A program made the translations under genes and the position numbers. The notes beneath the pieces are model-generated. The model was not told the origin of the DNA. It worked only from the letters and a program-made list of their open reading frames with translations, and searched no databases. Below, piece by piece: positions 1,604 through 62,369 of a DNA stretch of 64,000 bases (positions are counted from its first letter, which is position 1; each line of letters opens with the position of its first letter). The DNA is taken from positions 1,149,001 through 1,213,000 of the forward strand of contig NZ_CP027806.1 in NCBI RefSeq assembly GCF_003353065.1, written 5' to 3'. Source of the stretch: Cyclonatronum proteinivorum. GTDB taxonomy: Bacteria > Bacteroidota > Rhodothermia > Balneolales > Cyclonatronaceae.

Positions 1604-2914
1604 GTGAAGCTAACCGTAAAACTCTCGATGATACTCGTTCTGATGGTGCTGCACACAACTACAGCACATGCACAGGAAAATCTGGTACGCAGTGCTTCGG
1701 TTTATTCCGTGCTGGGCCTTGGTATGCCGCAGGATTATCTTTCCATTCATGGAACCGGCATGTCACTTATTGGTGTCGCAACGCCAGACCGCACCAAGGG
1801 GACACTGGCAAATCCGGCCATGTGGGGATCAACCTATCTCACACACATGACGGTTTCAGGGAATGTAACTACATTTGCAGCCAGTGACGGGGTGACCGAC
1901 GCAAGCAGTACGCTGGTAGGCTTCGACCGTTTTCAGGCACAGATACCGCTCATTCGCGAACGACTGGGCTTATCCGCAGGTCTGTATCGCTCAACCGATG
2001 TGCGTTACACGCTGATTGAAGATTCCAATATTGTGCTTCCCACCGCTGACTCCCTGTCGGTTGTAGATTACACTTCTGCCGTTTCAGGTACTGGGGGGAT
2101 TAACCGTTTGGAAGTAGGACTGGGATTAAGGCTCAACAACCATATCTTTATTGGCTATGCCCCTTCGATGAAATTCGGGATAATCGACGAAGACAACCAA
2201 ATTCTGTTCAACAGCAGCCTGTACAGTCCGGTAAGGTACAACCAAAGAACCCGATACCGGGGGATCGCCCATCGCTTCGGAACCATGATAACCCTACCGC
2301 GGGTATTTTCTTCAAGGGATCAGCTTGTGTTTGGTGCGACCGCAACCCTTTCATCTGATTTGAGTGCACATCGTAAAATTAACACCCGAATCTTAACAGG
2401 TCAGATACTTAATGATCTCGAACTTGTACCAGAAGATGAATTTGGTAAACAAAATGTTACCTATCCGTTTGAGACAACCCTCGGTTTATCTTATTTTCCT
2501 ACGCAATACACGCTGTTTTCCGCTGAAGTACATTTTCAGCAGTGGAGTCAGCTGAATTCTTTTGAATCTGAGGAACAGCTTTCATTTATGAAAGACCGGG
2601 TTCGCCTGGGGTTCGGCTTTGAATACGACGCTTTCAGTCGGGGTAACGAAGGGTTATTCAATAGTCTGATTTATCGTGCAGGCTTTTCGTATGATAACGG
2701 CCACCTCTCAATAGAAGGCACTGACATTGATACAATGTTGTTTTCTGTTGGTTTAGGTATTCCGTCCCCTTCCATGGGATCGTCTCTTGATCTGAGTTTC
2801 GACTTTGGTCTGAGAGGTACTGAAGATGACGGTCTTGTACGGGAAAGAATATTTGGATTGCGGGCTTCGTTAAGCTTCTCAGAACTCATGTTCCTGCAGC
2901 GTAGAGTTAATTAA
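1604..2914 (+). CDS. outer-membrane beta-barrel protein (FadL/PorV-like)
   Basis: This 436-residue protein begins with a GTG directly after the TAA of the preceding gene. It has a signal peptide ending AHAQ and then alternating-hydrophobicity strands. The early segment with VYSVLGLGMPQDYLS and a NPAMWG motif is typical of barrels related to OMPP1/FadL or PorV, in which an N-terminal strand is followed by an NPA loop. The C-terminus ends in an aromatic-containing strand. The barrel assignment is an inference from pattern; the cargo is unknown. The zero-length spacing points to translational coupling with the DUF4270-like lipoprotein upstream, which could be a partner at the outer membrane. Confidence 0.65.
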   Translation: MKLTVKLSMILVLMVLHTTTAHAQENLVRSASVYSVLGLGMPQDYLSIHGTGMSLIGVATPDRTKGTLANPAMWGSTYLTHMTVSGNVTTFAASDGVTDASSTLVGFDRFQAQIPLIRERLGLSAGLYRSTDVRYTLIEDSNIVLPTADSLSVVDYTSAVSGTGGINRLEVGLGLRLNNHIFIGYAPSMKFGIIDEDNQILFNSSLYSPVRYNQRTRYRGIAHRFGTMITLPRVFSSRDQLVFGATATLSSDLSAHRKINTRILTGQILNDLELVPEDEFGKQNVTYPFETTLGLSYFPTQYTLFSAEVHFQQWSQLNSFESEEQLSFMKDRVRLGFGFEYDAFSRGNEGLFNSLIYRAGFSYDNGHLSIEGTDIDTMLFSVGLGIPSPSMGSSLDLSFDFGLRGTEDDGLVRERIFGLRASLSFSELMFLQRRVN

Positions 2915-2949
2915 ACAGAAATACCTATCAGATTTATACCTGAAATCTT

Positions 2950-4275
2950 ATGAAAAAGCTAATCTTGCTACTGATAGCCGGACTTTTCGTGAGCGAATCG
3001 GCATTTGCTCAGGAAGAACCTCCTACACCGCTGAATCTTCCCCCAATTGCCGTTCAGTCTCTTTTTGTGGAAAGTGTACGGAATCAGCAGTTTGAAGAAG
3101 CCCTCAATTTTGGTCGCTGGCTGGTTGACTGGCGTCCGCGTGAAATGGAAAACAATCCGAATTTCAGAGGCGACCGTAACTTCCGCAGAATGATTCAGAT
3201 TTACGAAGCCATCGGCGCTCAGCAGTCTGATCCGAGCCTCAGGGAAGCCTATATTGATTCTGTACTCATTATGTATGAGCGTACCTTCATTACGTTTGAT
3301 GAATCGGAGATTGATAAATTCGAATGGAAAATGAACAGAGCGCGATTCATGCAATCTAATATGCGTGCAATCGATAATGGTAGGGTGCTGACCATGGAAG
3401 AGTACAATGAACTCTTCGAAAAAGACATGGAACGCTTTATTCAGACCGGAGATGGCTACTTCATCAACTATTTGGTCAGTGAGCTTGTAAATAATGGGTT
3501 TCGCGACCGCGCTATACAAACCATGAATGTAGCTGAACCGCTGTCACCGGAGTCTGTAAGAGCGCACTTCAATCAGGTAAGAGCTGACTTATTTAGCTCT
3601 CCCGATGAGCGCATTGAATTCCTTCTTACCCAAATGGATGGTATGGATGAAGATGAGCAGCTCGAAACCAAGCAGGAATTATTTGATCTCTACGGTGCTA
3701 CCGGAAACAGAGAAAAGCAGCGGGAGATGGCCATAACTTTATATGAAGTCGATCCGTCTTACGCCAATATCATGAGGCTTGCTGAGTACGCCGAAAGTCA
3801 GGCAAATTACCGTGACGCGATTCGCTATCTGGGAGAAGCTTTCCAGGCTACAGATGATCCTGAAACCCGTGCCATGATTAACCTGAAGCTCTCTGAAAAT
3901 CATTTTGCACTACGTGATCTCCAAACCGCACGCACGTACGCTCAGCGTGCCATGCGCCTGCGTCCAAACTGGGGTGCACCCCTTATGCGAATGGCAGATA
4001 TTTATGCGCAGGCAGTTACAGACTGTGCAAGCGGTGGCCTTGAGCGTACCGACAAAGCCGTTTACTGGCTCGTAATCGATTATCTTGAAAGGGCTCGCAG
4101 AGTTGACAGCAGCGTTGCCAATACAGTTCAGCGCAGCATTGCAAGTTTTCAGGCTGTTACCCCCAATGCGGAAGAGAAATTTTATATGAATTGGGAAAAT
4201 GGCGATACCATTCAGGTTGGGGCGAACCTCAATGCTTGTTACGATTGGATTAGCGAAAGCACGACCGTTCGCTAA
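2950..4275 (+). CDS. periplasmic tetratricopeptide-repeat protein
   Basis: This 441-residue protein has a clear signal peptide (MKKLILLLIAGLF... ending SAFAQ). It is almost wholly helical afterwards. TPR-like helix pairs are visible, for example around residues 275-345 with the alternation SYANIMRLAEYAESQ, YRDAIRYLGEAFQA and LQTARTYAQRAMRLRP. Two cysteines occur near residues 358 and 428 and might form a disulphide. It lies 35 bp after the barrel gene and is followed by a strong terminator, so it probably closes a three-gene operon. TPR proteins of this kind usually act as scaffolds in envelope complexes; no specific partner can be named. Confidence 0.7.
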   Translation: MKKLILLLIAGLFVSESAFAQEEPPTPLNLPPIAVQSLFVESVRNQQFEEALNFGRWLVDWRPREMENNPNFRGDRNFRRMIQIYEAIGAQQSDPSLREAYIDSVLIMYERTFITFDESEIDKFEWKMNRARFMQSNMRAIDNGRVLTMEEYNELFEKDMERFIQTGDGYFINYLVSELVNNGFRDRAIQTMNVAEPLSPESVRAHFNQVRADLFSSPDERIEFLLTQMDGMDEDEQLETKQELFDLYGATGNREKQREMAITLYEVDPSYANIMRLAEYAESQANYRDAIRYLGEAFQATDDPETRAMINLKLSENHFALRDLQTARTYAQRAMRLRPNWGAPLMRMADIYAQAVTDCASGGLERTDKAVYWLVIDYLERARRVDSSVANTVQRSIASFQAVTPNAEEKFYMNWENGDTIQVGANLNACYDWISESTTVR

Positions 4276-4361: not shown

Positions 4362-5074
4362 TTTTTTAGTTTTATTTGTATTACAAGGCCATACTGCCGA
4401 TATTTAGATTTAATTTTCTGTTCAGTTCGCAACTCATCGTATGACTCAGGGAGCTGAATGCTTCAGTAGCGTAACCGAAAAGAAGTGTACGAAGCGACTG
4501 ATACGAGCGCAGCATATTCGTGCAAAATACGTTTTTATCAGGGGCGATGAAGTTATCTCTGCATTGTATCTCCTGAGATGGGTTTATATCACAGCCGGAA
4601 AGTTTTTTAATCGTATGGCAAAACCCGACTTTATATCTCCTTGCAAGGGCTGCGTTGTATATACCCGCACGAACGTCTTATAGAAGCAAACAAGCCCTGT
4701 TTCAGCGGTATCAAATCTGCAGTTTCGTTAAAACCATTTCAATCAGGCCCGAAAAGACGAATACGTACCATTCATTTTCTGACAGCTTAAGCTTTATATC
4801 AGAAAATTGTATATATGGTTAAATCAGGGCTGTAAGGATGCTTTAGAGCCTTAGTTGTATGCAAGTAGGCTCGTACTGCGTATGCTGCGATGGGACAGGT
4901 ACTAAGGCATTTACCGCAGTAAGGCTATCGTTTGTGAGTTGATAAATTTGCCGGGCTCTGCAGTACATCCCGGATTAAATACAAACAAAATTAAAATCAA
5001 AAAGAATAAACAGATGTAATCTGATTGTTTTATTGGACGTCATCTGTATCTATCAGGAATAAGCTAAACCAGAA
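4362..5074. other. long gap upstream of rho, no gene recognised
   Basis: About 700 bases without a convincing gene. An 80-codon frame at 4441-4683 has no signal peptide, domain or ribosome-binding site, and its amino-acid composition does not look like that of its neighbours. Close to rho a pairing ACAGATG (near 5012) with CATCTGT (near 5041) could form a hairpin in the leader. Long leaders are known for rho genes that are autoregulated by Rho-dependent termination, so this may be a regulatory 5' leader. No known structured RNA was recognised. Confidence 0.4.
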
Positions 5075-6322
5075 ATGGCTCAATCAAGAAAAAAGAGTAA
5101 ATCAAGAGGCCGCAGAAAAAGCAACAAGCCTAAAGGGCGTGCTGCGGCTCCTAAGGGGAAAAAAAATAACCCGCTAATACCCGAATTTAATGGTCAGCAG
5201 CCTTCAAAGCCAGCCGGTACGTACAGTGGCGTTCTTGAAATCAATGAGAAAGGGTATGGCTTCCTTCGCAAGCTCAATCATGAGTTCACCCAAAAGGAGT
5301 CAGATCCTTTTGTGCATGTAAACATGGTACACATGTTGTACCTGAAGCCCGGACTTGTTCTTGATTGTGAGCTGGAAGAAGATAATAAAGGCAATCGCAG
5401 GGTTACTGAAATCCTTCAGATAAACGGACGACCGATTAAGGATTGGACCCTCGCGAAGCGGTTTGAGCTTCAAACACCAATTATGCCGGTTTCACAAATC
5501 AAGCTATCGCACAAAGCTGAAGAAACCGAAATGCGGGTTATTGACCTTATTTCACCGGTAGGTAAAGGGCAGCGGGCTATTATTGTAGCACCTCCCAGAA
5601 CCGGAAAAACGGTTTTACTGAAGCAAATTGCGAAAGCCATTGAAACCTATCACAAGAAAATTCATCTTGCCGTTCTGTTGATTGATGAACGTCCGGAAGA
5701 AGTTACGGACTTTATTCGGACCACAAGCGGACAGGTGTTTGCCTCATCAAATGATAATCCGGTTGAAAGCCATACGCGCATTGCGGAAATGGCTTTAGGC
5801 TATGTGAAGCGACGTGCCGAAATGGGAGATGATGTTGTGCTCCTGATCGATTCCCTTACCCGTATGGGGCGTGCTTACAATGGCGTAAAATCCGGTTCGG
5901 GCGGCAGAACGATGTCTGGTGGTCTTGACATCCGCGCGCTCGAAATTCCTAAAAGAATATTCGGCGCGGCACGCAAAATTGAAGGCGCCGGTTCCCTGAC
6001 CATTATTGCTACCTGCCTCATTGAAACCAACTCCCGTATGGATGATCTCATCTTCGAGGAATTCAAGGGAACGGGTAACATGGAACTCGTGCTCGACCGG
6101 GACCTTGCCAACGACCGCATTTTTCCTGCGATCAATATTGCAGCTTCCGGCACGCGAAATGAAGAAAAATTCATTGAAGATTCTTCCATCGAAGAACGAA
6201 ATGTGCTGCGCCGCTATTTGCTCCGTAAACCTCCCAAAGACTCCATGCTTAGCCTTCTGCAGGTACTGAAGCGCACGACAAGCAACCGGGATTTACTTGA
6301 GCAGCTCGCGACGCTTACGTAG
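5075..6322 (+). CDS. rho: transcription termination factor Rho
   Basis: This is a 415-residue hexameric RNA helicase that terminates transcription. Residues 1-45 are a basic Lys/Arg-rich tail replacing the usual N-terminal Rho_N helical domain. A cold-shock-type RNA-binding domain follows (EINEKGYGFLR at about 55-65). The ATPase core has Walker A VAPPRTGKT (171-179), a catalytic-loop DERPEEV (204-210), Walker B VVLLIDS (254-260), LTRMGRAYN (261-269) and the Q/R-loop region SGSGGRTMSGG (273-283). The P-loop carries RT where E. coli Rho has KA. The gene overlaps convergent lptB by 8 bp at its 3' end, leaving no room for a terminator between them. Confidence 0.97.
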   Translation: MAQSRKKSKSRGRRKSNKPKGRAAAPKGKKNNPLIPEFNGQQPSKPAGTYSGVLEINEKGYGFLRKLNHEFTQKESDPFVHVNMVHMLYLKPGLVLDCELEEDNKGNRRVTEILQINGRPIKDWTLAKRFELQTPIMPVSQIKLSHKAEETEMRVIDLISPVGKGQRAIIVAPPRTGKTVLLKQIAKAIETYHKKIHLAVLLIDERPEEVTDFIRTTSGQVFASSNDNPVESHTRIAEMALGYVKRRAEMGDDVVLLIDSLTRMGRAYNGVKSGSGGRTMSGGLDIRALEIPKRIFGAARKIEGAGSLTIIATCLIETNSRMDDLIFEEFKGTGNMELVLDRDLANDRIFPAINIAASGTRNEEKFIEDSSIEERNVLRRYLLRKPPKDSMLSLLQVLKRTTSNRDLLEQLATLT

Positions 6323-57800: not shown

Positions 57801-58525
57801 ATTATGCGCAAATGGGCCTGCCGGAAATTCTGGGCCGTCCCCTCGAAACATTTGACAGGGCAGAAGCCACGCAGTTTGCCCACATACTTTTTTTACAGGA
57901 TGAGGCGGGTCGTTTCCATCCTCAGGCCCTGCCACAGGAGGCGCAGTTCGCCCCGGCTTTCGAGCCCATCATCGCCGACTTCACCGGCGATGGCAATGAA
58001 GATGTCTTCCTGAGCCAGAACTTTTTTGCCTACATCCCCGAAACCCCGCGCAGCGACGCAGGCCGCGGTCTCCTCCTGCACGGTGACGGGAGCGGAAACC
58101 TGATTCCGGTGCCGGGGCAGGTGTCCGGCATTCTCGTGCACGGCGAACAGCGCGGGGCCTCAGCAGCCGACCTCACCGGCGATGGTCGTTTCGACCTGGT
58201 AGTGACCCAAAATGGTGCCGCAACCCGCGTACTGCACAACCAAGGCGCCAACCCGGGCCTCCGCGTCAGGCTCACCGGCCCTGAGACCAACCCCGTAGCT
58301 ATTGGCACCCGCCTGCGCCTTCGGTATGATGATGACAGCTTCGGACCCGTCCGCGAGCTCCGCGCAACCGGCGGCTTCGGCTCCCAGCATGGCTACGTGC
58401 AGATCCTCGGCCTCCGCCCCGACCGACAACCCGCCGCTCTGCACCTCACCTGGCCCGACCAAACCCAAACCGAAATCCCCATCGAACCCGGACAGCGAGA
58501 AATCCAAATCCGTCACACCCCGTAA
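54806..58525 (+). CDS. giant FG-GAP/VCBS-repeat lipoprotein with two ASPIC/UnbV domains
   Basis: This 1239-residue protein has lipobox VTMSC. It contains about eleven FG-GAP units with calcium-loop motifs such as GDLTGNGFPDLLF, ADFNGNGLLDVVI and SDLTGDGKPELLL, typical of beta-propeller blades. An ASPIC/UnbV domain lies at about 553-645 (VRWPDGTESVLDD) and a second one at about 1150-1239 (HLTWPDQTQTEI). The protein therefore looks like two fused propeller-plus-ASPIC halves. Such proteins in Bacteroidota and Rhodothermota sit on the cell surface, sometimes paired with SusCD, and may bind ligand or ions; no function is established. Codon usage is markedly G+C-rich in the second half. Confidence 0.93.
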   Translation: MYKSCSSLIFILCGLLVTMSCTSGENHVYYSFEWQDEQEYRWAALPVMDGEATGFHKVTPVWSGIDFVNGLTADQIADNRNLLNGSGVAAGDLTGNGFPDLLFLRLNGPNVLYENKGGFRFQNVTEGSGLALHDQFSTGALLADFNGNGLLDVVITAIGSPNRLFFNQGGGVFDEVPGGLPADRTYGSMTAAAGDLTGNGALDVYITNFKERSVRDSHWDRNTMRHIVETLDDGSFRVREEFEGHYELSLRDNTLVWFEQGEPDLLYLNDGAGNFTKVPLTSGMFLDEDGNPVTEIMPDWGLDVGIQDLTGNGLPDIFVANDFESPDRIWINQGDGTFRALPALAIRKSSLSAMAVGFSDLQRNGLTDMFVVEMLSRFHEERQRQMSTLAPSQQQPGLYDDRPQFLGNTLYLNRGDNTWAEIAEYAGVRRSEWSWGTVFLDVTLDGYEDILITNGHYFDVQDTDANTAIGAMLQRRMISGERYMLEYPRLPNHNAAFRNNGDLTFTDVGEDWGFASLDISHGMALADLNQDGYTDVIINRVDEPALILKNRATQPRIAVRLRGTSPNTTAIGALIEVEGGPVPQSKYVRSGGTYLSNSEYSYTFAAGNAETLRIRVRWPDGTESVLDDARPNRIYEIDQSRVQPAAVAVSAAPEDPAPLFRDVTAALGHRHLQQRYDDFGRQPLLPYHLSQHGPLTALIENPASDQPTQLFITAAPGEPLSHYAQTRDGQWRQTSFTPDVQFDAFEKSAVTGWYDTDGRLHLLVGYSNYHSGAESAPAAVYYLSDQSGTRVQQVIEGFGATVGGLYLADYSGNGYPDLLLTGRVLPGRYPEAATSRLYRNEGGRFVPDDANNAILQNIGLVQGAVFSDLTGDGKPELLLALRWGSLRVLGFDADRRFTDITASLGIESGNGWWNGITTGDLTGNGRMDIVATNWGLNHLYASATGGEAFIFYEDFSGMGTNTVIESYRDEAGRFLPRRNFEMLSRNPPFIRNTARTFTNYAQMGLPEILGRPLETFDRAEATQFAHILFLQDEAGRFHPQALPQEAQFAPAFEPIIADFTGDGNEDVFLSQNFFAYIPETPRSDAGRGLLLHGDGSGNLIPVPGQVSGILVHGEQRGASAADLTGDGRFDLVVTQNGAATRVLHNQGANPGLRVRLTGPETNPVAIGTRLRLRYDDDSFGPVRELRATGGFGSQHGYVQILGLRPDRQPAALHLTWPDQTQTEIPIEPGQREIQIRHTP

Positions 58526-58546
58526 GGGCGACCCTTGTGGTCGCCC
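58526..58546. repeat. perfect 8-bp hairpin directly after the UnbV stop codon
   Basis: GGGCGACC at 58526-58533 pairs with GGTCGCCC at 58539-58546 around CTTGT. No T run follows, so it looks less like an intrinsic terminator than like a REP-type palindrome or an mRNA-stabilising stem. Confidence 0.65.
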
Positions 58547-58620
58547 CGCGGAGTCCCGCACTACCCCGGCATCCAGGATCGCGCACCCTCGTGCTCGCCC
58601 CACGCAGTCCCATACCACCC
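58530..58620. repeat. two degenerate direct repeats with 54-bp period
   Basis: TCGCCCCGCGGAGTCCCGCA at 58541-58560 recurs with changes as TCGCCCCACGCAGTCCCATA at 58595-58614. This C-rich stretch has no coding signal and lies between the UnbV and CIA30 genes. Confidence 0.5.
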
Positions 58621-58753
58621 ACCCCACGGTCGTCCCGTCCCGAACCCATATCCACGTGTAGCGCCCCACTTGTAACCCTCCGCTGAACGCTTTCAAAGGG
58701 CATCCTGGTTTGATCACGAAGCACATCCTCATGAATTCTATGCCGCAAAACCC

Positions 58754-59392
58754 ATGGCCGCTTTCATTCTTCCATTTCTGACGCTTCTCTTGTTACTTAC
58801 GTTTGATATCAACTTCAACCAAATCAGCAATCCCGTGAGCTTTTACAGCACCGATGACCCTTCTCCCGAAAAATCAGACACATTAAACACAGAAGAAACC
58901 GTGCTGATCCGCTTTGGTCACGACGCGCCACAGTTCTGGCAGGTCGTAAATGACGGGGTGATGGGCGGCATCTCCCAAAGCCGGATTCGTCCGCTCGAAG
59001 CCGGTCATGCCGTATTCGAAGGTGTGGTATCGCTTGAGAACAACGGCGGCTTCGCTTCCATCCGGACAAGGGCATCGCAGCCGGTCGATCTTTCCGAATT
59101 CGACGGCCTTTCGATCAAAGCAAAGGGTGACAACAAAGTCTACTGCCTGCGCATCAAAACCGTGGAAAACGGACGCGTTACTTCTTATGCCTGGGAAGCC
59201 CGCTTCACGGCAGGTTCAGAATGGGAAACGCATCAGCTCTCCTTCGCCGATTTCCGTCCCGTATTTCGCGGACGCAACCTCCGGGACGTTCCGCCGCTCA
59301 ATACCGCTGCCATTTTCGAAATCGGCCTCATGATCCGCGACGCACAGCAAGGCCCCTTCGCCCTCGAAGTAATGACGCTGGGGGTGCATTAA
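58754..59392 (+). CDS. CIA30-family protein
   Basis: This 212-residue protein has a hydrophobic N-terminal helix that may be a signal or anchor, then a beta-sandwich domain with VVNDGVMGGISQSRIR (about 66-81) and FEGVVSLENNGGFASIRTR (about 89-107), the pattern of the CIA30 (complex I intermediate-associated protein 30) family, and a C-terminal IGLMIRDAQQGPFALEV. In eukaryotes the family assists complex I assembly; bacterial members are uncharacterised sugar-binding-like domains. The nearby complex I genes are not in the window. Confidence 0.87.
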   Translation: MAAFILPFLTLLLLLTFDINFNQISNPVSFYSTDDPSPEKSDTLNTEETVLIRFGHDAPQFWQVVNDGVMGGISQSRIRPLEAGHAVFEGVVSLENNGGFASIRTRASQPVDLSEFDGLSIKAKGDNKVYCLRIKTVENGRVTSYAWEARFTAGSEWETHQLSFADFRPVFRGRNLRDVPPLNTAAIFEIGLMIRDAQQGPFALEVMTLGVH

Positions 59393-59515
59393 AAGACCCG
59401 CGCTAATAGCGCGCGAATTTAATGGCTCGGGCGTCTTGGGCGCGGATGATGTCATTTTGGAACAGGCAGGATTTCAGAAACGGCAATTGAAAATTCGGGT
59501 CGTGTCCCCCGCATG

Positions 59516-59543
59516 GTAGATACGCAATGCATTGCGTCTCTAC
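59516..59543. repeat. palindrome in repeat copy 1 (one mismatched pair)
   Basis: A 28-bp inverted repeat built on ACGCAATGCATTGCGT, flanked by GTAGA and TCTAC-type arms; one pair in the left arm is changed (T instead of G). Counterparts in the other two copies are perfect. Confidence 0.8.
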
Positions 59544-59812
59544 GCCGGGGTTTTTGCATGTTTGTTACGGGCTGTACGCCGGGCCCGGCGGGCGCGCCTT
59601 CGGCGCTCGCGGGGGAGATGGGGTGGGGCGTGATGCGATTTCTATGAAGAATACACCGCTACGCGGCTGGACGCTGGTATTGGCATCGGGGCGTGTTGAA
59701 ATCCGGATACCATGCATATAATCTTGTTTATCCTGTAAATCCTAAAAATCCTGTTCAAAAAATGGGCTGGTCGGGATTCGGCAATTGAAAATTCGGGTCG
59801 TGTCCCCGCATG

Positions 59813-59840
59813 GTAGAGACGCAATGCATTGCGTCTCTAC
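59813..59840. repeat. perfect 28-bp palindrome in repeat copy 2
   Basis: The sequence from GTAGAGACGCAATG to its exact reverse complement forms a self-complementary 28-bp unit. Short palindromes of the type GTAGAGACGCAA...TTGCGTCTCTAC are known from many cyanobacterial and Bacteroidota genomes as REP-like elements. Confidence 0.85.
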
Positions 59841-60109
59841 GCTGGTGCTGTTGCGGGTTTGTTACGGGCTGTACGCCGGGCCCGGCGGGCGCGCCTTCGG
59901 CGCTTGCGGGGGAGATGGGGTGGGGCGTGATGCGATTACTATGAAGAATACACCGCTACGCGGCTGGTCGCTGGTATTGGCATCGGGGCGTGTTGAAATC
60001 CGGATACCATGCATATAATCTTGTTTATCCTGTAAATCCTAAAAATCCTGTTCAAAAAATGGGCTGGTCGGGATTCGGCAATTGAAAATTTGGGTCGTGT
60101 CCCCGCATG

Positions 60110-60137
60110 GTAGAGACGCAATGCATTGCGTCTCTAC
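60110..60137. repeat. perfect 28-bp palindrome in repeat copy 3
   Basis: The same 28-bp self-complementary unit as in copy 2, 297 bp further on. Confidence 0.85.
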
Positions 60138-60407
60138 GCTGGTGCTGTTGCGGGTTTGTTACGGGCTGTACGCCGGGCCCGGCGGGCGCGCCTTCGGCGC
60201 TTGCGGGGGAGATGGGGTGGGGCGTGATGCGATTACTATGAAGAATACACCGCTACGCGGCTGGTCGCTGGTATTGGCATCGGGGCGTGTTGAAATCCGG
60301 ATACCATCATATAATCTTGTTTATCCTGTAAATCCTAAAAATCCTGTTCAAAAAAAGAAGGGCATTCTCTTGGCTGCACAGGCTGAATATCCCTCCCAAT
60401 AAAAACA

Positions 60408-60438
60408 AAACCCCGAAGCTGAAGCAGCTTCGGGGTTT
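60408..60438 (-). terminator. terminator of the acyl-CoA synthetase gene
   Basis: A perfect 14-bp stem between 60408-60421 and 60425-60438 with a three-base loop. On the minus strand it is followed by TGTTTTTATT. Confidence 0.9.
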
Positions 60439-60479
60439 GCTATCTCACGAAAAGATAACCGTTAAACCGGCATTTTGAA

Positions 60480-62369
60480 TCAGTCCTGCAGGGTCGAGGT
60501 GTCGCCGGGGTCTTCGCCAAGGGCTTCGGCCTTGAGGAGGCGGCGGACGATTTTGCCGCTGCGGGTTTTGGGCAGCTCGGTTTTGAAGATGATCTCTGAC
60601 GGTGTCGCGATCGGACCGAGCTCGCGGCGCACGTGATCGCGGAGCACGCCTTTGAGGTGATCTTTGGCTTCAAAGCCGGGCTTGAGCACCACGTAGGCCT
60701 GTATGCGTTCGCCTTTGACCTCATCCGGCAATCCTACAACTGCCGATTCCGCCACGGACTGATGTGTGAGGAAGGCGCTTTCCACTTCCGCGGTGCCGAT
60801 TCGGTGACCGGCGACGTTCATCACATCGTCCGCGCGACCGAGTACGCAGAAGTAGCCGTCCTCATCATAAAACGCCACGTCCCCGCTTGTGTAGCAGCCG
60901 GGGAAGTCTTCCCAGTATTTTTGATAGCGCTCGTCGTTGTTCCAGATGGTGCGCATCATATAGGGGAGGGGGCGGCGGAGTACGAGCAGGCCGCCCTGAT
61001 TCGGGCCGGTCGTTTCGCCGGCGGGTGTGACCACATCACAGCTTACGCCCGGCAAGGGCTTGCCGACTTTTCCGAGCTTCGCATCGAATGCGGGCAGGGT
61101 GCCAAGCACGGGCGATGCGACTTCAGTCTGCCACCAGTTGTCCACCACGAGACCGCGGTTTTTGAGGATGTTATCCTGCGCCCATTCGTGGGCTTCCGGG
61201 TTGAGGGGCTCGCCCGCGCAGGCCATCAGCCGCAGGGTGGAGACATCGTATTTATCGATAAATTCCTTGCCGAAGCGCATGAACATGCGGATGGCCGTAG
61301 GTGCCGTAAACATCACGTTGACGCCGAAGCGCTCTACGATTTTCCAGACCACACCGGGATCGGGGTAGTCGATACTGCCCTCCCGCGCGAGGATGGTAGC
61401 GCCGTTCACCATCGGACCGTACACGATATAGCTGTGCCCCACAATCCAGCCGATATCGGAGGTGCTCCAGAAAATGTCGGATTCTTTCACATTATAAAAG
61501 GCGCGGGTGAGGTAGTAGGTACCAACCATGTAGCCGCCGTGCACGTGTACGACACCTTTTGGCGTGCCGGTCGTCCCGCTTGTATAGAGGATGAAGAGAG
61601 GATCTTCAGCGTCCATTTCTTCAGGTTCGCACCATACCGGCTGCGGATCAACAAACTCATAGTAGTCGAATTCGCGCTCCGAGTTGATTTCCAGAAACGG
61701 CTCCTGACGCCGGTGTACGACCACGGTTTCCACAAAGTCGAGGTCTTCGATAGCACTGTCCACGATGGACTTGAGCCCGACCCGCTTGCCGCGCCGGAAG
61801 GTTACGTCTGAATAGATCACAACTTTCGCCTTGCTGTCCTCAATCCGGGATTTCAGTGCCTGAACGCCCATGCCCGCATACACGACGGAGTGTATGGCCC
61901 CGATGCGGGCGCAGGCCAGCATGGAGACGATGCCCTGCGGCGTGAGCGGCATGTAGATGATCACCCGGTCGCCCTTTTTGACGCCCCGGGATTTCAGCGC
62001 ATTGGCCATTTGGCAAACCCGGCGCAGCAGGCGGTCGTAGGTCATCACGATCTCTTTGCCGTCTTCGGCAATCCAGATGAGCGCCACTTTCTGACGCTTC
62101 GGCCCTTTCACATGCCGGTCGAGCGCGTTGATGGTGATGTTGGTTGTGCCGCCCAAAAACCATTTGTGGCGCGGGGGCTTGAAGTCAAGCACCTTGTTGA
62201 AAGGCTTGATCCATTCGAGTTCGCGGGCGATCGCGCCCCAGAAGGCGTCCGGGTTTTGAATGGAGTGCCGGTAGAGCGAGTCGTATTCCTGAATGAGGCA
62301 CTGCTGCAGCAGGCTGTCGGGTGCGGTGAGGGTTCTGGTTTCCTGAACCAGGGCTTCAATGGATGACAT
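60480..62369 (-). CDS. acetyl/propionyl-CoA synthetase (AMP-forming)
   Basis: This 629-residue enzyme activates a short fatty acid with ATP and CoA. The ATG at 62369 (MSSIEALVQET) is preferred; the frame continues to a TTG at 62423 but that gives an implausible start. Motifs: P-loop YTSGTTGTPKG, the adenine-pocket and substrate region DNWWQTEV with the Trp that limits the pocket to acetate or propionate, CYTSGDVAFYDEDGYF, and the C-terminal TRSGKIVRRLL with K606, the site acetylated in homologues. The KG-K linker at about 92-96 (VKGPKRQKVALIWI) replaces the usual DKxAIIWE. Acetate is the likeliest substrate, with propionate possible. Confidence 0.92.
   Translation of the reverse strand: MSSIEALVQETRTLTAPDSLLQQCLIQEYDSLYRHSIQNPDAFWGAIARELEWIKPFNKVLDFKPPRHKWFLGGTTNITINALDRHVKGPKRQKVALIWIAEDGKEIVMTYDRLLRRVCQMANALKSRGVKKGDRVIIYMPLTPQGIVSMLACARIGAIHSVVYAGMGVQALKSRIEDSKAKVVIYSDVTFRRGKRVGLKSIVDSAIEDLDFVETVVVHRRQEPFLEINSEREFDYYEFVDPQPVWCEPEEMDAEDPLFILYTSGTTGTPKGVVHVHGGYMVGTYYLTRAFYNVKESDIFWSTSDIGWIVGHSYIVYGPMVNGATILAREGSIDYPDPGVVWKIVERFGVNVMFTAPTAIRMFMRFGKEFIDKYDVSTLRLMACAGEPLNPEAHEWAQDNILKNRGLVVDNWWQTEVASPVLGTLPAFDAKLGKVGKPLPGVSCDVVTPAGETTGPNQGGLLVLRRPLPYMMRTIWNNDERYQKYWEDFPGCYTSGDVAFYDEDGYFCVLGRADDVMNVAGHRIGTAEVESAFLTHQSVAESAVVGLPDEVKGERIQAYVVLKPGFEAKDHLKGVLRDHVRRELGPIATPSEIIFKTELPKTRSGKIVRRLLKAEALGEDPGDTSTLQD

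Follow-up and report, generated by a model that had tools for sequence, protein, structure and literature searches.

A 297-bp tandem array in Cyclonatronum proteinivorum carries a double-foot REP palindrome linked to divergent RAYT genes

A REPIN consists of two inverted REPs that form one mobile unit. Double-foot REPs are described, in the sections of PMC6006769 available to us, together with the TnpA_REP proteins of subclass 2.4, whose genes carry REPs in frame, generally between the HuH and Tyr motifs. A GTAG-tagged REP super-family is listed in Proteobacteria, Cyanobacteria, Chloroflexi and the PVC group in the accessible part of PMC3733652. Here we compare with these systems a tandem array from Cyclonatronum proteinivorum (genome of a single contig, 4,294,247 bases), located in a stretch of 64,000 nt that was analysed as a whole and is referred to as the window. 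We consider it very likely that the 28-bp palindrome of this array, GTAGAGACGCAATGCATTGCGTCTCTAC, is a double-foot REP and the cognate, non-autonomous substrate of a divergent RAYT of the subclass 2.4 type, and that it was joined to a composite unit, which was multiplied locally and is probably tolerated.

Using TRF and a repeat search, we detected the array on the plus strand at 59481..60355, with a period of 297, 2.9 copies of the composite unit and 97% matches (TRF). The copies begin at 59481, 59779 and 60076 and are thus spaced by 298 and 297 nt; copy 1 (59481..59778) has one extra C and a palindrome with one mismatch, copy 2 (59779..60075) served as the reference unit, and copy 3 (60076..60355) ends without the final ~16 nt of the unit (all on the plus strand). 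Each unit is ordered as a leader, the 28-bp palindrome, a GC-rich part, a part with the CTATGAAGAAT hairpin and a tail of AATCCTG strings. The palindrome, for which no strand is assigned, lies at 59516..59543 in copy 1 (27/28 bases) and is perfect at 59813..59840 in copy 2 and at 60110..60137 in copy 3; these three matches in the window compare with none in 100 shuffles. As single-stranded DNA, the palindrome of copy 2 folds into a 12-bp hairpin with a z of -7.19 against shuffles. The GC-rich part contains the self-complementary CGCCGGGCCCGGCG (59577..59590, 59874-59887 and 60171-60184, also without assigned strand) and is followed on the plus strand by the hairpin of CTATGAAGAAT and CCGCTACGCGG (59642..59667, 59939-59964 and 60236-60261; located by motif count and as 5-bp terminator-like hairpins) and by the AATCCTG-rich tail (59720..59756, 60017-60053 and 60313-60349). 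Neither the GC-rich part (71 nt of copy 2, z +1.07) nor the CTATGAAGAAT part (66 nt of copy 2, z +0.73) folds better than shuffles. The initial annotation, made from the sequence of the window, had described three head-to-tail 297-bp copies, each with a 28-bp palindrome, a GC-rich stem and an AATCCTG tail, and all of these elements were recovered.

The three copies are 96.6% (copies 1 and 2), 97.9% (copies 2 and 3) and 94.5% (copies 1 and 3) identical by alignment, where the figures for copy 3 are lowered because its aligned segment ran 17 nt past the array. In blastn, the match of copy 3 to copy 2 was 99% (query positions 1-281) and that to copy 1 was 96%. The closest pair is therefore formed by copies 2 and 3, with copy 1 slightly more distant, as had been noted at the outset.

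The palindrome is dispersed in the genome, with 23 sites at up to three mismatches and none for the reversed control, so the possibility raised earlier that there are no other copies does not hold. Sites that end in GTAGAGACG...CGTCTCTAC, a pattern different from that of the first count, number 21, and the complete 297-bp unit gave 101 blastn matches at E <= 1, some of which are one palindrome counted on both strands. Beyond this genome, the exact 28-mer was found in at least 116 stretches of public genome contigs. Among the 80 titles listed were Bacteroidetes groups, Planctomycetaceae, Fibrimonadales, Chitinispirillia, Desulfamplus and Wallbacteria, and since many of these records are MAGs, single ones may be misbinned. 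Within the phylum, 57 of 394 sampled genomes contain GTAGAGACG(N8-12)CGTCTCTAC, with the highest count (41) in genome G100. The core differs among genomes and yet is mostly self-complementary: in 41 distinct 28-mers from among the matches listed (other lengths dropped, positions 10-13 paired with 19-16), 139 of 164 core cells form Watson-Crick pairs, compared with a mean of 34% and a maximum of 45% in shuffles, and 19 of 41 distinct 28-mers are fully self-complementary. This pairing does not arise by construction, because the pattern set just the outer nine bases on each side. In other genomes, longer perfect inverted repeats with an exact palindrome at their apex were also seen, at L099:434, L112:2701, L121:5987, L144:2805, L151:141, L155:182, L167:3988 and other sites. 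Text searches of the accessible literature for the 28-mer, its pieces or the peptides found nothing, and the 9-base halves matched 16 papers with apparently unrelated titles. Carriage of the array by a phage or plasmid was rejected, as the region 59400-60480 had no match among phages and plasmids at E 1e-5 and the exact 28-mer was not found in IMG/VR.

The initial annotation had placed the palindrome among REPs linked with RAYT enzymes, and this was borne out by its dispersal and by its occurrence in and beside RAYT-like genes of this and other genomes. When a tnpA-REP gene was sought in the own genome, two divergent RAYT genes with an embedded palindrome of this type were found. The first (locus L066, 3979-4578, at ~2.680 Mb, about 2,679,978-2,680,577) contains the exact 28-mer in frame after the HuH motif and encodes NHFH, WQ and YIINNP, with HxH and Tyr intact. 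It is located between two ORFs that, judged from their sequences, look HsdS-like (2281-3975) and RhuM-like (4726-5802). The second (L064, 4841-5503, at 1.813 Mb) has an in-frame palindrome with a variant core and NHIL instead of HxH, and is, judging from its sequence, probably dead. Pfam gave no match for either gene, and the NCBIfam model NF047646 scored 68.3 bits (L066) and 48.8 bits (L064), both under its cut-off of 80, which is a database threshold and lies outside the published definition of subclass 2.4; the search with PF01797 therefore missed both. The best PDB match of the L066 protein is TnpA_REP 4er8 (E 0.0083, 31 residues). A phylum-wide RAYT profile search returned three matches in the own genome, and both of those examined carry the palindrome type.

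We searched the ORFs of the collected loci with an iterated HMM and obtained 20 palindrome-linked matches at E <= 2e-46, or 19 genes after removal of the duplicate locus L037. In 15 of the 19 the palindrome occupies the loop that follows the HuH motif, and 14 of these go on to a Tyr motif, while the L229 gene loses its frame before Tyr; in the other four it lies in an N-terminal or upstream extension of the frame (three) or in the flank (one). The loop palindrome is read in either of two open frames, giving peptides of the VETQCIASL or RDAMHCVST type. In G100 the RAYT gene is flanked by palindromes on both sides. Six more RAYT-like matches at E <= 1e-37 have no palindrome in their locus, and all six come from the PF01797 selection. 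Because most palindrome-linked loci in this set had been chosen for holding the palindrome, we also took the 30 RAYT loci that the phylum-wide search gave by score. An internal double-foot palindrome was present in 14 of the 30, against a shuffle expectation of 0.2 (10 of 26 without L263, L264, L265 and L275, which helped build the profile), a palindrome within 400 bp in six, and either kind in 15. At L117 (6984-7838), the variable loop of the RAYT contains consecutive half-palindrome repeats of the RDAMHDDNC type, as though halves of REPs multiply within the gene.

Across the sampled genomes, a divergent RAYT (E <= 1e-15, up to seven candidates scored per genome) is present in 49 of the 57 genomes with the palindrome and in 118 of the 337 without it (odds 11.4, Fisher 2.9e-13, a test that treats genomes as independent of phylogeny). 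Two counts speak against the RAYT as partner: eight of the 57 palindrome genomes have no RAYT match at this threshold, and in 118 genomes the RAYT occurs but this palindrome pattern does not, their own REPs having been sought just in the 30 loci. Six palindrome genomes are absent from the PF01797 matches; four of these have the divergent RAYT (G004, G204, G289 and G306) and two are without it (G010 and G389). Within the genus, where the RAYT search covered G000, G003, G004 and G005, both palindrome and RAYT occur in the own genome (G000) and in G004, a weaker RAYT match without the palindrome pattern was found in G005, and the palindrome is also present in G001.

The remaining relative, G003, has neither component (no match to the unit or to the palindrome pattern and no such RAYT at E <= 1e-15). 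The two genes that flank the array in the window, encoding a CIA30 family protein and an acetyl-CoA synthetase (acs) type protein, are neighbours on one contig of G003 with no array between them. Their interval there is 1,558 bp of unrelated sequence, including a 290-aa ORF, with no clean empty site, so that insertion of the array and its loss or replacement both fit. No GTAG[AG]G[AG]CG or complement was found around the CIA30 gene in the stretches from G001, G004 and G005, and G002 gave no CIA30 match.

Under the reading that we favour, the single-stranded palindrome would fold into its 12-bp hairpin on the lagging strand, and the RAYT would bind, cut and re-join this hairpin to give new REP copies. 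In this lineage the REP would have been built into the longer composite that runs from the leader through the REP, the GC-rich part and the CTATGAAGAAT hairpin to the AATCCTG tail. Counts of the CTATGAAGAAT motif are one for the initial 59.4 kb of the window, three for the array and 22 for 224 kb of repeat-bearing stretches of the own genome. The motif recurs at five sites beside the PF01797 gene at 1.880 Mb, a CTATAAACAT form is present at six sites at 1.606 Mb, and none occurs beside the other three PF01797 genes; the recurrence is suggestive of a 297-bp unit that joins parts of two REP systems.

A further-reaching idea, which we regard as speculative and rather unlikely, is that double-foot REPs have a preference for larger inverted repeats or give rise to them (X-REP-X', by hairpin-loop targeting or by snap-back synthesis primed by the folded REP), and that REPs belonging to two enzyme families make up the 297-bp composite as a cooperative mosaic, which would spread in certain regions of the chromosome only. 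Perfect inverted flanks of at least 8 nt were present at 11 of 120 exact palindromes elsewhere, compared with ~0.2 in shuffles, in a sample of exact palindromes with 30 nt on both sides (loci L076 upward) that contains some near-duplicates, such as L134/L166. In the own genome, none of 16 checked sites extends by more than 3 nt.

The related copies in the own genome vary in their modules. For 16 copies the match to the unit begins only at the GC-rich part; two of them have a variant palindrome upstream, three the end of a half-palindrome and 11 neither, and AATCCTG-type tails also occur alone elsewhere. At 996159 (L057) and 3920154 (L072), composite copies hold a variant palindrome with another core at the position of the palindrome. 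Pairwise similarity across different arrays or single copies is 70-91%, with a mean of 82% (68 pairs among 13 segments, several of them partial). Two adjoining 412-bp units in the array at 1.053 Mb are identical at 405 of 412 positions, and alignment of the pair of units at 3.88 Mb gives 74%, so homogeneity within arrays is not general. The 13 composite sites listed here as containing the palindrome fall in two arcs (0.95-1.21 and 3.69-4.24 Mb) that make up 19% of the chromosome, against a random mean of 59% and with none of 20,000 draws as clustered, in a test for which sites and grouping were picked after the data had been seen. The same arcs hold 13 of the 16 loci with the GC-rich part and four of the 13 tail-only loci, which are scattered. 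As the composite copies are regionally clustered, the composite itself does not appear to be freely mobile.

These observations bear on the alternative that the 297-bp unit is a mobile element (MITE or BIME-like) that transposes whole, with the array formed by serial insertion. It would account for the related composites at several sites and for three other arrays with palindrome spacings of 300, 403-432 and 430 bp, but the variation in modules and the regional clustering argue against it, and we consider it very unlikely. Beside the bare palindrome in other genomes, no excess of direct target-site duplications was found at 120 exact palindromes. The simplest reading of the sequences is local tandem growth: a head-to-tail amplification of the composite for which slippage during replication or recombination among its copies would be the most likely route, rather than a transposition event for every copy. 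The claim that the array grew recently is kept as an inference, drawn from copies that are 94.5-97.9% alike within the array against the lower similarity between arrays.

A second alternative assigns the palindrome to the Y1 genes detected with PF01797 in the own genome. There are five of these, at 2.32 (L046), 1.61 (L047), 1.88 (L048), 1.71 (L049, IS200/IS605 by NCBIfam) and 3.14 Mb (L050), and repeats next to L048 contain the unit's CTATGAAGAAT motif. Against this, neither GTAGAGACG nor AATCCTGT was found within ~1.5 kb of any of the five, L046-L049 adjoin repeat arrays of other sequence with different hairpins, and L050, which has an internal TAG, is near a pair of a different perfect palindrome (CCATTGCCCATGATTTAAATCATGGGCAATGG and one related to it at 88%). 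Co-occurrence is also weaker for PF01797, which is present in 51 of the 57 palindrome genomes and 219 of the 337 others (odds 4.6), than for the divergent RAYT, and we judge this alternative highly improbable. As a test of the RAYT link, the PF01797 genes gave a false negative, since the five genes found carry other repeats.

Two convergent genes flank the array with their 3' ends, the CIA30 family gene (PF08547; 58754..59392, plus strand) and the acs-type gene (PF00501, PF13193 and PF16177; 60480..62423, minus strand), and for this reason the array is probably tolerated. A 14-bp intrinsic-terminator-like hairpin with a T-rich tail lies 3' of the acs-type gene (60408..60438, minus strand). In the region 58700-60600 the terminator scan gave seven sites, compared with 2.6 in shuffles; a single weak 5-bp hairpin, present in each array copy, accounts for three of them, the other four lie outside the array (two overlapping at 59396-59418 and two at the acs terminator), and none is the 28-bp palindrome. 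The suggestion that the array is a small-RNA nursery found no support, with no sigma-70-type promoter site in the same region (1.6 in shuffles) and two Rfam matches in 58500-61500 that are far under the gathering score, on the acs side and outside the array. Action as a transcription barrier, also proposed initially, is possible, and the promoter, Rfam and terminator scans showed no evidence of a host function. That the array is maintained for a job, as a transcription barrier, a protein-binding site or an mRNA-stabilising 3' end of the convergent genes, is hardly credible: its place between these genes, the strong palindrome hairpin and the regional excess of terminator-like sites with weak hairpins in the three copies fit such a role, but the scan places a terminator at the acs end and none at the palindrome, the folding of the GC-rich and CTATGAAGAAT parts does not exceed that of shuffles, and G003 lacks the array at the same locus. 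Upstream of the CIA30 gene, positions 58522-58547 of the window (GTAAGGGCGACCCTTGTGGTCGCCCC) look like a decayed palindrome of the GTAGGGGCG type close to the end of a large ORF.

The favoured reading, a double-foot REP served by a divergent RAYT, gives an otherwise anonymous array of repeats one particular enzyme gene of the same genome as its partner, which a search with PF01797 alone misses. The RAYT with intact motifs and the identical 28-mer form a compact enzyme/REP pair for testing how REPs spread, a process that is poorly understood according to the accessible part of PMC8266576. Such arrays may also explain assembly breaks and differences in length between strains.

Compared with BIMEs and REPINs, as far as the available descriptions go, the array similarly forms mosaic clusters of REPs and other modules, but it has one symmetrical REP per 297-bp unit, arranged head to tail, and no paired inverted REPs. 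With the GTAG super-family, as described in the accessible part of PMC3733652, it shares the GTAG tag, the palindrome, complementary stem changes and clusters that include tandem-repeated flanking DNA; it differs in that the host is assigned to Balneolia and that GTAG pairs with CTAC inside the stem. The closest likeness is to TnpA_REP (RAYT) subclass 2.4, Bertels group 4, in the available sections of PMC6006769: the GTAG...CTAC ends and long stem (here 5' GT[AG]G with the complement C[TC]AC at the 3' end), the motifs NH[IFV]H, WQ and YIxNNP (complete in L066; NHIL in the second gene), REPs that flank tnpA_REP or lie inside it, in frame between HuH and Tyr, and an occurrence in Bacteroidetes and scattered phyla. 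Dispersal here is modest, at 21-23 sites by the two patterns, and the REP differs in being found also within a 297-bp tandem composite. Assigned by its motifs and embedded REP, the RAYT appears to belong to subclass 2.4, and the array palindrome and its RAYT appear to match the double-foot REP kind already published for this subclass.
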